DNA of 64,000 bases, taken from the NCBI RefSeq assembly GCF_003977615.1, contig NZ_RYZR01000007.1, forward strand, positions 620,001 through 684,000. The letters run 5' to 3'. Numbering within the stretch: the stretch's first letter is position 1; each line of letters begins with the position of its first letter. Of this stretch, positions 29,533 to 34,921 are shown piece after piece. A program made the translations under genes and the position numbers. This DNA is from Dyella dinghuensis (GTDB lineage: Bacteria; Pseudomonadota; Gammaproteobacteria; Xanthomonadales; Rhodanobacteraceae). The notes below the pieces were generated by a model. That model did not search any database and was not told the DNA's origin. It worked only from the letters and a program-made list of their open reading frames with translations.

Positions 29533-29584
29533 AACGGATTAACGAAACGTGGTGGCATCGCGTGATGCCGCAACAGGAAACAAC

Positions 29585-30358
29585 ATGCTGAAGATCGAAA
29601 ACCTGCACGCCCGCGTCGAGGGCAAAGACATTCTCAAGGGACTCACGCTGACCGTGAATCCGGGCGAAGTGCACGCCATTATGGGCCCCAACGGCGCGGG
29701 CAAATCCACGCTGGGCAACGTGCTTTCCGGCCGTGACGGCTACGAAGTGACCGAAGGCTCGGTGATCTTCGAAGGCCGCGATCTGCTCACCCTGGAACCG
29801 GAAGAGCGTGCCGCGGCGGGCTTGTTTCTGGCGTTCCAGTATCCGGTCGAAATTCCAGGTGTGAACAACACCTACTTCCTGCGTGCAGCGCTGAATGCGC
29901 AGCGTAAGCAGCGCGGTGAGCCGGAACTCGATTCCATGCAGTTCCTCAAGCTCGTGCGCGAGAAGTTGAAGATCATGCAGATCTCCGACGAGCTGCTGCA
30001 TCGCGCCGTGAACGAAGGTTTCTCCGGTGGTGAGAAAAAGCGTAACGAGATTTTCCAGATGGCGGTGCTTGAGCCGAAGCTGGCGATCCTCGACGAAACC
30101 GACTCGGGCCTGGATATCGATGCGCTCAAACAGGTGGCACAAGGTGTCAACGCGCTGCGCTCGCCCGATCGCGCCTTCCTTGTCATCACTCATTACCAGC
30201 GCCTGCTCGATTACATCGAGCCGGATTTTGTGCATGTCCTGTCCGATGGCCGCATCGTCGAAAGTGGCGACAAGACGCTGGCGCTGAAGCTTGAAGAACA
30301 CGGCTACGCCTGGATTGCCGATCGCGATCCAGCGCTCGCTTCCGAGGCGCGTGTATGA
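29585..30358 (+). CDS. sufC: Fe-S cluster assembly ATPase SufC
   Basis: This is a 257-residue soluble ABC-type ATPase that drives conformational change in SufBC2D. Walker A is GPNGAGKST, signature FSGGEKKRNEI, Walker B LAILDETDSGLDID, switch His in FLVITHYQRLL. The ATG at 29585 follows AGGAAAC; an in-frame GTG 36 bp upstream is unlikely. It overlaps sufD by 4 bp. Confidence 0.96.
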   Translation: MLKIENLHARVEGKDILKGLTLTVNPGEVHAIMGPNGAGKSTLGNVLSGRDGYEVTEGSVIFEGRDLLTLEPEERAAAGLFLAFQYPVEIPGVNNTYFLRAALNAQRKQRGEPELDSMQFLKLVREKLKIMQISDELLHRAVNEGFSGGEKKRNEIFQMAVLEPKLAILDETDSGLDIDALKQVAQGVNALRSPDRAFLVITHYQRLLDYIEPDFVHVLSDGRIVESGDKTLALKLEEHGYAWIADRDPALASEARV

Positions 30359-31668
30359 GTCCGACGCCGGCACCGGTTCCGTTTATCGACGGCCTGCGTG
30401 ACATTGACAGCGTGCGTTTGGCCGGCAGCGGGCACGCGTGGCTGGATACGGCGCGTCGTGAAAATCTCGAAGCATTCATCGCGGCGGGTTTGCCCGATAC
30501 GCGTGCCGAGGCGTGGAAATACACGGCCCTGCGTGCGCTGGGTCAACGGCGGTTTACGCATGGCGATCCCGGCGCACCGACGCGCAACGTTGATCCAAAG
30601 GAACTCGTGCTTCCGGGTGTCGATGGTCCGCGGCTGGTTTTCGTCAACGGTGCTTTCCGTGCGGATCTTTCACGTCTTGAAGCGCTTCCTGCCGGTTTGA
30701 CGTTGCAGCCGCTTTCAATGGTGCTGAGCAAGGACCCTGAGCCGCTGCGTTTTGCGTTGAGCCGTCACTATCGCGAAACGAGCGATGCCTTCGCACGCCT
30801 CAATGCGGCGCTGGCCGGCGATGGCGTCGTGCTGCGCGTTGCACCGGGCACACGCGTCGGCAAACCCGTGCAGCTGTGCTTTGTCGGCACACCAGCAGAA
30901 GGCGATCTTGCATGGCATCTGCGGAATGTCATTGAGCTGGGTGAGGGTGCCGAGCTCGATCTCGTCGAGCATCATGTGTCCAACATCGCACACAAGCATC
31001 TTGGCACCGTGGTCACCGATATCGTTGTGCACGACGGTGCGCGCCTCCAGCACGCGCTGCTCCAGAACGCAGCCGAAGAAAGTACCTTGATTCGTCGCGG
31101 CAGCTTGCATCTCGGCGCCAAGGCGCACGCGGCACTGCACGTGCTGGAACTCGGCGGTGCGCTGGTGCGTCACGATCTGCATGCCGAACTTCGTGGCGAT
31201 GAAGCGCGTCTGGACACGCGCGGTGTATTCGTATTGCGCGGCCGTCAGCACGTCGACACGCAGCTGTCGATCCGTCATCAGGCACTCAATACCGCGTCGG
31301 AATCGACGTGGCGTGGTGTCGCCGACGAGCGCGCCCACGGCGTGTTCCGTGGCGCCATCGTCGTTGCGCAAGGGGCGGACGGCAGCGACGCGAACCTCAG
31401 CAACAAGAACCTGCTGCTTTCCGGTCTGGCGGAAATCGATACCAAGCCGGAACTCGAAATCTATGCGGACGAAGTGAAAGCCGCGCATGGCGCCACGATC
31501 GGTCAGCTCGACGAGCGCGCGCTGTTCTACCTGCGCTCGCGTGGCCTGCCATACGCCGAAGCGCGCGCGTTGCTTACGGCAGCGTTCTGCCGTTCGGTCT
31601 TCGCATCGCTGCCCAATGAATCCCTGCGCGAACACTTCTCCGAAGCGCTGCTCGCACACTTGCCGTAA
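30355..31668 (+). CDS. sufD: Fe-S cluster assembly protein SufD
   Basis: This 437-residue paralogue of SufB forms the SufB-SufD interface where clusters assemble. The N-terminal helical region contains RAEAWKYTALRALGQRRF. The beta-helix core follows, with ADEVKAAHGATIGQLDERAL holding His378, the position equivalent to the functional SufD His of E. coli. The C-terminus is FYLRSRGLPYAEARALLTAA. Overlap with sufC (ATGA) and an 11-bp gap to sufS mark a single operon. Confidence 0.95.
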   Translation: MSPTPAPVPFIDGLRDIDSVRLAGSGHAWLDTARRENLEAFIAAGLPDTRAEAWKYTALRALGQRRFTHGDPGAPTRNVDPKELVLPGVDGPRLVFVNGAFRADLSRLEALPAGLTLQPLSMVLSKDPEPLRFALSRHYRETSDAFARLNAALAGDGVVLRVAPGTRVGKPVQLCFVGTPAEGDLAWHLRNVIELGEGAELDLVEHHVSNIAHKHLGTVVTDIVVHDGARLQHALLQNAAEESTLIRRGSLHLGAKAHAALHVLELGGALVRHDLHAELRGDEARLDTRGVFVLRGRQHVDTQLSIRHQALNTASESTWRGVADERAHGVFRGAIVVAQGADGSDANLSNKNLLLSGLAEIDTKPELEIYADEVKAAHGATIGQLDERALFYLRSRGLPYAEARALLTAAFCRSVFASLPNESLREHFSEALLAHLP

Positions 31669-31679
31669 ATCGATCCCCT

Positions 31680-32924
31680 ATGAACGCCAAGCCCAATCAG
31701 CCTCTCGACTTCGACGTCCAGCGCATCCGCACGGATTTTCCGCTGCTTGGCCGCAAGGTGCATGGCAAGCCGCTGGTGTACTTCGACAACGCCAATACCA
31801 GCCAGAAACCGCTGCAGGTAATCGAAGCGGTCGATCGTCACTATCGCGAGCACAATGCGAATGTGGCGCGCGCCGTTCATCAGTTGGGTGAAGAGGCGAC
31901 GGCAGCATACGAAGGCGCGCGCGACAAACTCGCAGCATGGATCAACGCCGCTTCGCGCAACGACATCGTGCTTACGTCGGGCACGACGCAGTCGATGAAT
32001 ACAGTGGCTTACAGTTTCGCGCTGCCGCGCTTGAAGCCGGGCGATGCAATTCTCACGACGGTGATGGAGCATCACGCCAACATCGTGCCGTGGCAGCTTG
32101 TGGCGGCGCGTGCAGGCGCCACCGTGAAAGCTGCGCCGATCAATGAACGCGGCGAGCTTATCCTTGAAAAGTTTTTCGAAATGCTCACGCCGGAAGTGAA
32201 ACTGGCTTGCGTGACGCATGTTTCCAACGTGCTCGGTACGGTCAATCCCGTGCGCGAGATTGCACGCGAATGCCGTCGACGCGGTATTCCGTTGCTAGTG
32301 GATGGTTCACAAGCGCTGCCGCATCGGCCTGTCGATGTGCAGGCACTTGGTTGCGACTTTTATGCGTTTACCGGCCACAAAATGCTGGCACCGACCGGCA
32401 CGGGCGGCTTATGGGCCAAGCGTGAGCATCTGCAATCCATGCCGCCGTTCTTTGGTGGCGGCGAGATGATTCGCGAAGTGCGTTTTGACGGCACCACCTT
32501 TGCCGAGCCACCGCACAAATTCGAGGCCGGTACACCGAACATCGCCGGCTTCGCCGGTGTGGGTGCGGCTATCGACTACGTGCAATCGATTGGCTTCGAT
32601 GCCATCCGGGCTTGGGAACACGAGTTGCTGGCGTATGCCACCGAACGCCTGCGTGAGATTCCGGGGCTGCGCATTTTTGGCGAGGCCGCGGAAAAGGAGC
32701 CGGTTATTTCCTTCCTCATCGAAGGTGCACAGGCGACTGACATGGCCACCTTGCTCGATCTTGAAGGCGTGGCCGTTCGCTCAGGCCACCACTGTGCGCA
32801 TCCGCTGATGCAGTTCTACGGTGTCCCCGCCACGCTGCGCGCATCGCTCGCGTTCTACAACACGCGCGAAGAAGTCGACGTTTTCATCGCGGCGCTGCTT
32901 AAGGTCCGCAAGCTGCTGATGTGA
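31680..32924 (+). CDS. sufS: Cysteine desulfurase SufS
   Basis: This 414-residue PLP enzyme releases sulfur from cysteine for cluster assembly. Group II features are YFDNANTSQKP, VVT-type TTVMEHHANIVPW, the PLP-lysine region FYAFTGHKMLAPTGTGGLW and active-site Cys372 in VRSGHHCAHPL. Length matches SufS (E. coli 406). No sufE or sufU partner is visible next to it. It is convergent with the anti-sigma gene, with 14 bp between stops. Confidence 0.96.
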   Translation: MNAKPNQPLDFDVQRIRTDFPLLGRKVHGKPLVYFDNANTSQKPLQVIEAVDRHYREHNANVARAVHQLGEEATAAYEGARDKLAAWINAASRNDIVLTSGTTQSMNTVAYSFALPRLKPGDAILTTVMEHHANIVPWQLVAARAGATVKAAPINERGELILEKFFEMLTPEVKLACVTHVSNVLGTVNPVREIARECRRRGIPLLVDGSQALPHRPVDVQALGCDFYAFTGHKMLAPTGTGGLWAKREHLQSMPPFFGGGEMIREVRFDGTTFAEPPHKFEAGTPNIAGFAGVGAAIDYVQSIGFDAIRAWEHELLAYATERLREIPGLRIFGEAAEKEPVISFLIEGAQATDMATLLDLEGVAVRSGHHCAHPLMQFYGVPATLRASLAFYNTREEVDVFIAALLKVRKLLM

Positions 32925-33954: not shown

Positions 33955-33981
33955 GCGGCATCGGGTTCCCTGATACCTTAC

Positions 33982-34008
33982 AGATACAGGCAAGACGAAT
34001 TCGGTTGC
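33982..34008 (-). promoter_or_regulatory. ECF-type promoter of the sigma/anti-sigma genes
   Basis: On the minus strand GCAACC (-35) and GTATCT (-10) are separated by 15 bp. The -10 ends 27 bp before the sigma-factor ATG. The same two hexamers at the same spacing occur on the other strand at 34021-34047. Confidence 0.7.
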
Positions 34009-34020
34009 AATGGGGTAGCT

Positions 34021-34047
34021 GCAACCGGGGGAGTGGTAACTGTATCT
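34021..34047 (+). promoter_or_regulatory. ECF-type promoter of the divergent membrane-protein gene
   Basis: GCAACC, 15 bp, GTATCT. It is identical in both boxes and spacing to the promoter on the opposite strand; the two -35 boxes are 12 bp apart. The -10 ends 49 bp before the ATG at 34097. Confidence 0.7.
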
Positions 34048-34475: not shown

Positions 34476-34558
34476 CCCCGCATTGTCGAGTCAGGCAACA
34501 ACGGTGGCATGTCGCCATGCCGCCCGGGGCTTTCTGCGCTCTTTTTCTGGAGAACGCT

Positions 34559-34921
34559 ATGCATCTGCGATGGATAACCATGGGTTTGCTGTGCATTCCA
34601 TGTCTTGCGATGGCGCAATCGGTCCATCGCTTCAAACTCTTTAACGACATGCCAAGCGAGATTGTGTCGTTTACCGTATCGCAAGCCGGCGGCGAGTCCT
34701 CGGCTAAGCTGGTTTTCGACGACCCAGACCGGCCATTCAAATACGGTGCGGCCACGATGATTGATGTGCACGGTGGTAACGGTTGCTTGTTTGATCTCCA
34801 GACGCGACTTTCGACCGGGGAGCGGGTCACGACGCGTAATGTCGATCTATGCGCCATCCGCGTTTACCGGCCGGGTTTGCGTATCGATGCCGTGCATTTT
34901 GGCTCGCCTTGGGCGCCATAG
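34559..34921 (+). CDS. Secreted hypothetical protein
   Basis: This is a 120-residue protein. The signal peptide MHLRWITMGLLCIPCLAMA precedes a small mature domain of about 100 residues with beta-rich character (HRFKLFNDMPSEIVSFTVS, FKYGAATMIDVHGGNGCLFD, RNVDLCAIRVYRPG). Two cysteines could form one disulfide in the periplasm. The ATG at 34559 follows GGAG at suitable spacing. I do not recognise the family. It lies between the ECF module terminator and the GNAT gene. Confidence 0.75.
   Translation: MHLRWITMGLLCIPCLAMAQSVHRFKLFNDMPSEIVSFTVSQAGGESSAKLVFDDPDRPFKYGAATMIDVHGGNGCLFDLQTRLSTGERVTTRNVDLCAIRVYRPGLRIDAVHFGSPWAP

Follow-up and report, generated by a model that had tools for sequence, protein, structure and literature searches.

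Two mirrored promoters as the predicted autoregulatory element of an ECF sigma/anti-sigma factor pair in Dyella dinghuensis

The region between the divergent genes for an ECF sigma factor and a DUF6249 membrane protein in Dyella dinghuensis is very probably the autoregulatory control element of an ECF sigma/anti-sigma pair whose sigma factor reads two back-to-back promoters (Table 1). The sites have the look of promoters for this locally encoded sigma factor, which we infer to read their shared motif. We propose that the released sigma factor reads both of these identical promoters: from one it would give rise to itself and the anti-sigma factor, and from the other to the DUF6249 membrane protein, so that it would amplify itself, its inhibitor, and DUF6249. 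Until a signal comes, the protein encoded just after the sigma factor presumably holds the sigma factor at the membrane. The sigma factor is also predicted to read one distant promoter in this genome, before a gene for a secreted DUF4440 protein. With less confidence, we propose that the two back-to-back promoters do not act independently. Throughout, the window is the whole 64,000-nucleotide stretch of DNA that was analysed, which is part of a 4.2-Mb genome.

Table 1. Positions in the window of the predicted control element and of the genes around it
Feature	Position	Strand	Details
Predicted anti-sigma factor gene (P0002), 148 aa	32939..33385	−	start overlaps the sigma factor stop by 4 bp
ECF sigma factor gene (P0001), 190 aa	33382..33954	−	Sigma70_r2 and Sigma70_r4_2
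Predicted sigma-side promoter, TGCAACC (−35)-N15-GTATCT (−10)	33982..34009	−	27 bp to the sigma factor ATG
Gap between the −35 7-mers, 10 bp	34010..34019		
Predicted DUF6249-side promoter, TGCAACC-N15-GTATCT	34020..34047	+	49 bp to the DUF6249 ATG
DUF6249 small membrane protein gene (P0003), 113 aa	34097..34438	+	three predicted helices

The preliminary description of this DNA had placed GCAACC-N15-GTATCT on both strands, with −35 hexamers that are 12 bp apart, and had given the distance from each −10 to its gene start. The positions and distances are all correct, and both −35 boxes extend to TGCAACC, with the 7-mers 10 bp apart. This pair accounts for both of the window's exact matches to the 28-base pattern, and 100 dinucleotide shuffles gave a mean of 0.00. 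From base composition, about 6 × 10−7 exact mirror pairs with any gap of 0–60 bp are expected per 4.2 Mb. A scan of the genome with GCAACC-N14..16-GTATCT, as the description had proposed, did recover the mirror pair but gave no further promoters: there were four sites, versus two for the reversed pattern, and we rejected the two besides the pair as promoters because both lie within genes (one pncB-like and, with N14, one thioredoxin-reductase-like; names by eye).

Could the motif be a chance match? With mismatches allowed, it is no rarer than expected: a shorter motif with two mismatches was found four times in the window, versus 3.69 expected, and a one-mismatch search of the genome gave 12 sites, versus 12 for the reversed pattern. 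As these searches do no better than chance, the significance of the motif rests on its exactness, its mirror arrangement, and its conservation. The count of exact patterns in the window, the presence of the motif at all 35 of the gene-pair loci described below, and the controls for mirror pairs, which were zero, leave a negligible probability of a chance match, which conservation had already refuted.

The sigma factor has regions 2 and 4 only and 190 amino acids, as is typical of ECF factors (about 160–200 amino acids). Both of its Pfam domains score above cut-off, TIGR02937 matches at 99.9 bits, and its matches in the PDB are SigE, SigH, SigW, and RpoE. Its closest relatives are the sigma factors of named Dyella species. 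The match of P0003 to DUF6249 (PF19762, E = 9 × 10−8) scores 32.5 bits, versus a Pfam cut-off of 33, and relatives in the same position score 34.0 and 35.3 bits. The structure model of the DUF6249 protein has three helices, at modest confidence. DUF6249 matches are also found in control genomes (Caulobacter vibrioides, Bacteroides ihuae, and Haloferax volcanii). Downstream of the DUF6249 gene, at 34559–34921 on the plus strand, lies a gene for a small secreted-looking protein, which had no Pfam or NCBIfam match when scanned from an upstream start at 34517. At the other end of the locus, sufC-, sufD-, and sufS-like genes (Fe-S cluster assembly, by eye; 29549–32924, plus strand) are convergent with the anti-sigma gene.

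We compared the locus across 61 genomes (our own and 60 relatives). Relatives of the sigma factor (E = 2 × 10−33 or better) are present in 33 of them and relatives of the DUF6249 protein in the identical 33, and the two genes are adjacent in all 33, with 35 gene-pair loci in total. (Weaker sigma hits in G034, G041, G049, G053, and G058, with E from 10−21 to 3 × 10−21, were classed as other ECF factors.) This exact co-occurrence bears out the earlier suggestion that the DUF6249 gene is a core member of the regulon. The description had also put the protein forward, tentatively, as part of the sensing circuit. Allowing up to two mismatches, the motif lies upstream of each transcription unit at 35 of 35 loci. 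The boxes are kept, then, wherever the gene pair is kept, which was the test that the preliminary description had set for itself, and the sigma factor's own operon always has the conserved bipartite promoter that is expected of an ECF factor. The loci have two layouts: 25 are divergent, with one site facing each gene, and 10 are tandem, with a single DUF6249-sigma-anti-sigma operon that has a single site at its front and no internal site between the genes at two or fewer mismatches. At every one of the 35 loci, the best site has a spacer of 15 (14–16 were permitted). The 60 sites comprise 48 that are exact, 8 with one mismatch, and 4 with two mismatches (both sites of G013 and the DUF6249 sides of the first copy in G039 and of G050). 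Exact TGCAACC-N15-GTATCY sites number 65 in the 61 genomes, versus 9 for the reversed pattern, and 48 of these 65 are at the sigma locus.

In broader sets of genomes, 78 of 398 genomes from the order and 69 of 395 from a sister family (the two sets overlap) contain exact mirror pairs with a gap of 0–60 bp; the reversed control gave 0 in each set. Also, in two Bacteroidota loci (L039 and L048), GCAAC-N16-TGTCT precedes related sigma genes, with no mirror site marked. These single sites suggest that motifs of this class arose before the mirror pair did.

The earlier proposal that the sigma factor drives its own promoter gains support both from the motif at all 35 loci and from matched changes in the boxes of the two promoters. 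The second copy of the locus in G015 has TGCAACT on both sides, G013 has GGACTCC on both sides, and a Rhodanobacter locus (L025) has CCGGTCT and CCGATCT. In the Zixibacteria (L029 and L031), CTGTC is found on both sides. Changes on one side only are also present (e.g., in G005, G020, and G050). Across 45 loci, comparing the paired promoters of each locus gives 20 box mismatches, versus 62.5 expected when partners are shuffled (P = 5 × 10−5), and the 39 Xanthomonadales loci alone give 9 mismatches, versus 19.6 for shuffled partners (P = 5 × 10−5); this test treats the loci as unrelated, ignoring kinship, and excludes 4 of 49 regions (L047, whose boxes overlap, and L041, L042, and L045, which have no recognisable sigma-side box). 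We also viewed the alignment of the sigma factors for residues that track the box variants, which led nowhere.

The signature that had been put forward for this ECF group can be refined, using 268 promoters chosen by their exact boxes (so that the search pattern fixes the boxes), to TGCAACCG-N13-CGTATC[CT]. Within the 15-bp spacers and the gaps of these promoters, there is strong consensus only at the bases that adjoin the boxes. About 9–10 nt past the −10, a C and then a purine are preferred, which is a plausible transcription start. The −10 here is CGTATC, and the remark that a 15-bp spacer is short was fair: the spacer to the GT is one base shorter than in the Zixibacteria relatives.

For P0002, the protein encoded after the sigma factor, the most likely identity is a class I anti-sigma factor without its former zinc ligands. 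As expected of a gene for such a factor, its gene directly follows and overlaps the sigma gene, in the window as well as in relatives: of 29 loci of Xanthomonadales type or from Kangiella that were read, 28 have a P0002-type gene that begins with an ATG at offset −4 and continues for at least 135 codons. (The exception, L030, has no such ATG at offset −4 behind its sigma gene.) P0002 has a cytoplasmic N-terminal part and then long membrane-type helices, and it has no hit in Pfam or NCBIfam. We divided the proteins after the sigma factor into family A1, from the Xanthomonadales and Kangiella (leaving out L035), and family A2, with 9 sequences from Zixibacteria, Calditrichia, and other loci (leaving out L044, which is without cysteines, and with L049 unused). 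In A2, H5, H29, C33, and C36 are invariant across the 9 sequences, and zf-HC2 was matched by four of the six members that were scanned, one of them over the cut-off. These H-x3-C-x2-C ligands are not among the conserved columns of A1 and are absent from P0002. We read P0002 as an anti-sigma factor because a profile comparison joins its family to this zinc-motif family (67 columns, 95%, E = 2 × 10−8); the match begins after the zinc motif and extends into the membrane segment. The passages of PMC7406223 on class I anti-sigma factors state that the H-x3-C-x2-C ligands are not obligatory and that zinc and non-zinc members are mixed within groups. The same mix is seen here, as the ligands are missing from the Xanthomonadales-Kangiella family and mostly retained in the one from Zixibacteria and Calditrichia. 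Unlike the class I domains in those passages (PMC7406223), many members of the family after the sigma factor have two predicted membrane segments, and the structure model has no match to a solved structure (Foldseek gave a single match, with E = 4.7).

The gap between the two −35 boxes ranges from −4 to 175 bp in relatives, and it tends to change by whole helical turns. Among 137 distinct exact pairs, a gap of 10 bp is the commonest (35 pairs), none has a gap of 14–19 or 35–37 bp, and one has a gap of 25–28 bp (26 bp, in Kangiella). Of these pairs, 134 lie between divergent sigma and DUF6249 genes. (L034, L171, and L290 were dropped because tblastn missed one gene.) Four clusters, which were named after the data were seen, hold 124 of the 134 loci: 67 have gaps of 8–13 bp, 22 of 20–24 bp, 28 of 29–34 bp, and 7 of 38–44 bp, so that successive clusters are spaced by about 10.5 bp. 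The remaining gaps are 1 bp (in three species), 5, 49, 53, 53, 72, 115, and 164 bp. Gaps that are off phase include −4 (overlapping boxes, in L047), 5, 49, 72, 164, and 175 bp, about 28 bp in G045, and, outside of the Xanthomonadales, 16 and 26 bp in Kangiella and 18 and 25 bp in distant phyla. The two Kangiella gaps (26 bp in L034 and 16 bp in L038) are about one turn apart, but out of step with the Xanthomonadales gaps by roughly half a turn.

One explanation for the phasing is that it merely follows from shared inheritance, or from a mutational preference for insertions of about 10 bp, and that the two promoters are autoregulated but independent. Half of the loci do share a gap of 8–13 bp, and close relatives often share gaps. 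As a control for ancestry, we used a FastTree tree of both proteins and picked path-disjoint pairs of loci greedily, nearest first, leaving out the three of the 134 loci with gaps above 70 bp. The period persists in these comparisons: the 24 with a difference of at least 5 bp favor multiples of 10.5 bp (mean cosine 0.48, P = 4.5 × 10−4, V-test), with differences of 7 and 17 bp among them. Using a limit of 4 bp instead gives 25 comparisons and P = 2.3 × 10−3, and a period scan on the gap differences peaks at 10–10.5 bp. In contrast, the period is absent from the leader lengths when they are put through the same tree procedure (mean cosines of −0.21 and −0.34; gaps versus leaders, P = 2 × 10−5 by resampling and P = 10−5 by two-sample permutation), with the leaders being a noisy control whose starts were estimated from the ends of tblastn hits. 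So, a general tendency of the region towards such indels does not seem to account for the phasing, and we consider the by-product explanation unlikely. With ancestry allowed for, the gaps still cluster at intervals of about 10.5 bp, with the exceptions noted above, which suggests that the two promoters are physically coupled on one face of the DNA.

A second possibility is that the inverted repeat, GGTTGCA-N-TGCAACC, is the operator of a separate dimeric regulator, so that the 7-mers would be phased half-sites and not −35 boxes. The two 7-mers do form a perfect inverted repeat, and their gaps are mostly phased. However, single TGCAACC-N15-GTATC sites precede DUF4440 genes, PF00144 genes, other genes, and the tandem operons, several of these in genomes for which no second exact site is listed (G001, G002, G004, G009, G011, and G014). 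Also, the distance to GTATC has stayed fixed at 15 bp while the gap varied, and all 33 genomes that have the system also have the sigma gene. An operator of this kind seems very unlikely.

Third, the preliminary description had proposed a steric switch: with the −35 boxes too close together, only one polymerase could bind, and the choice of direction would be a control point. This would fit the gaps of 9–12 bp in the window and in many relatives. Furthermore, two polymerases can hardly fit at a gap of 1 bp, which is found in three species, or bind together in Tahibacter soli (L047), where the −35 boxes overlap (a gap of −4 bp) as GGTTGCAACC, just upstream of the sigma gene. But gaps of 20–175 bp are common in relatives that retain both promoters. 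At 10 of the 35 loci, there is one promoter and one operon, so the two outputs are made together. Finally, helical phasing would not be expected from exclusion by itself. Given the range of gaps, the single-promoter operons, and the phasing, mutual exclusion is not supported as a conserved control point, and we consider it improbable as the explanation for the element. Steric exclusion may hold at the shortest gaps, yet it is not the conserved feature. By the same token, occupancy of both promoters at once is not essential everywhere, as loci with 1-bp or overlapping boxes would hardly hold two polymerases.

Returning to physical coupling, the tendency of the gap to change by whole helical turns makes it probable that the bound partners are in contact along the same DNA face. 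These partners could be two bound polymerases, or a polymerase and something at the other −35 box. Counting from the start site predicted above, the centre of the partner −35 box falls near −41, −50.5, −61, −71.5, −82, or −92.5. Class I and class II activator-dependent promoters have helical spacing rules (CRP binds at −41.5, −61.5, −71.5, and so on), and class II and class I activators occupy positions close to those of the partner −35 box. So, the neighboring polymerase may act as an activator. As with CRP-type activation, the promoter has an upstream site whose distance is mostly phased; unlike with CRP, this site is the −35 of the opposite promoter, and the putative helper would be a second polymerase or its sigma factor.

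Each polymerase might help to recruit the other via the alpha C-terminal domains, which could naturally make their contacts at A/T runs. Runs of at least four A/T are present in 24 of 50 gaps of 20–34 bp, versus 8 of 100 flanks of equal length, with about equal A+T content overall and with the loci treated as unrelated (ignoring kinship). More specifically, two holoenzymes with the same sigma factor might recruit each other in a phase-dependent way, via contacts of the alpha C-terminal domain or of sigma region 4; we offer this tentatively, as a possible but doubtful mechanism. If it is true, then mutual recruitment would let the locus regulate itself cooperatively, in the manner of a switch. 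Its geometry would evolve in steps of full helical turns, and among its products would be a membrane protein and secreted serine hydrolases. More broadly, a mirror pair that is mostly phased over 134 loci suggests that the geometry of the DNA can couple the functions of neighboring polymerases, which is relevant to the mutual influence of divergent promoters in bacteria.

Away from the sigma locus, motif counts are barely above the control (17 versus 9 reversed sites in the 61 genomes), so the argument for a wider regulon rests on which genes are hit. A wider scan for exact sites gave 92 sites in all, versus 41 for the reversed pattern (a hand count of tables), and the GTATCR variant gave 11 sites, versus 9 for the control (also counted by hand), with 5 of the 11 being DUF4440 sites. 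The predicted further targets are a secreted DUF4440 protein, in D. dinghuensis as well, and secreted PF00144 serine hydrolases in relatives.

In our own genome, there is one further convincing site: a GTATCA site (one mismatch) that lies 36 bp before a gene for a secreted-looking DUF4440 protein (C10:328590). Relatives of this protein are found in 10 of the 16 genomes of the genus, with 11 copies. Nine copies are off-locus, and six of these (in G000, G005, G008, G009, G010, and G012) have a site with GTATC[AC] at 36 to about 267 bp before the start. Two more (in G006 and G013) have a site with two mismatches. The copy in G007, a genome without the sigma and DUF6249 genes, has no site at two or fewer mismatches. 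The two further DUF4440 copies are directly behind DUF6249 genes, in G013 (after a trypsin-like gene) and in G015. In Lysobacter niastensis (L019, 1798–2439), a DUF4440 frame lies between the promoter pair and the sigma gene and looks interrupted, with two overlapping frames.

By reading the open reading frames, we sorted 30 exact off-locus GTATCY sites into those in promoter position and those inside genes. Nineteen are in genomes with the sigma factor, and 13 of these are 24–111 bp before a start codon (for three of the 13, this codon is a downstream ATG within a longer frame); the other 6 are inside genes. Of the 13, 7 precede genes for PF00144 serine hydrolases whose N-termini resemble secretion signals by eye (L097, L098, L122, L125, L131, L132, and L160). 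The others precede S41, S33, DUF4440, HlyD, ABC permease (by eye), and DUF2855 genes. The remaining 11 of the 30 sites are in genomes where no sigma factor was found (G055 and G060) or none was sought (9), and 2 of the 11 are in promoter position. Also, in G045, a site that faces away from the DUF6249-sigma operon is predicted to serve a PF00144 gene. From the kinds of genes that carry off-locus sites, the response looks like a secreted-hydrolase type. In our own genome, control of the six PF00144 genes by the motif is not supported, as none has a correctly oriented site nearby at one mismatch. A candidate with two mismatches and a spacer of 16 (L176, 1397–1425), just before the start of a PF00144 domain, was left uncounted. 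Overall, the motif suggests that this uncharacterised sigma factor controls a very small regulon, and it links DUF6249, DUF4440, and secreted PF00144 serine hydrolases within a single response.

Autoregulated ECF promoters are common. The RpoE-RseA, SigW-RsiW, and SigH-RshA operons, with their known promoters and pairings, are autoregulated systems of an ECF sigma factor and a class I anti-sigma factor. The system described here has the same two-domain sigma factor, an anti-sigma-type gene that overlaps the 3′ end of the sigma gene, and a bipartite promoter with an AAC-containing −35 before its own operon. Unlike in systems of the RpoE-RseA type, the operon promoter here is mirrored by an identical promoter for DUF6249, at a mostly phased distance. 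Among the literature matches listed, we found neither the sigma-DUF6249 system nor phased divergent ECF promoters, nor a link between DUF6249, DUF4440, and PF00144; DUF6249 is named in one paper among these matches, on plant kinases. The parts of the system are of known kinds, and the phase-locked mirror pair was not found in the literature matches listed.

There is also a small repeat next to the sigma-side promoter. A second GTATCA lies 11 bp downstream of the sigma-side −10 (GTATCTGTAAGGTATCA, 33971–33987, minus strand). No TGCAACC box was seen at the proper distance for it. A similar repeat beside the sigma-side −10 is present at another Dyella locus (L008).
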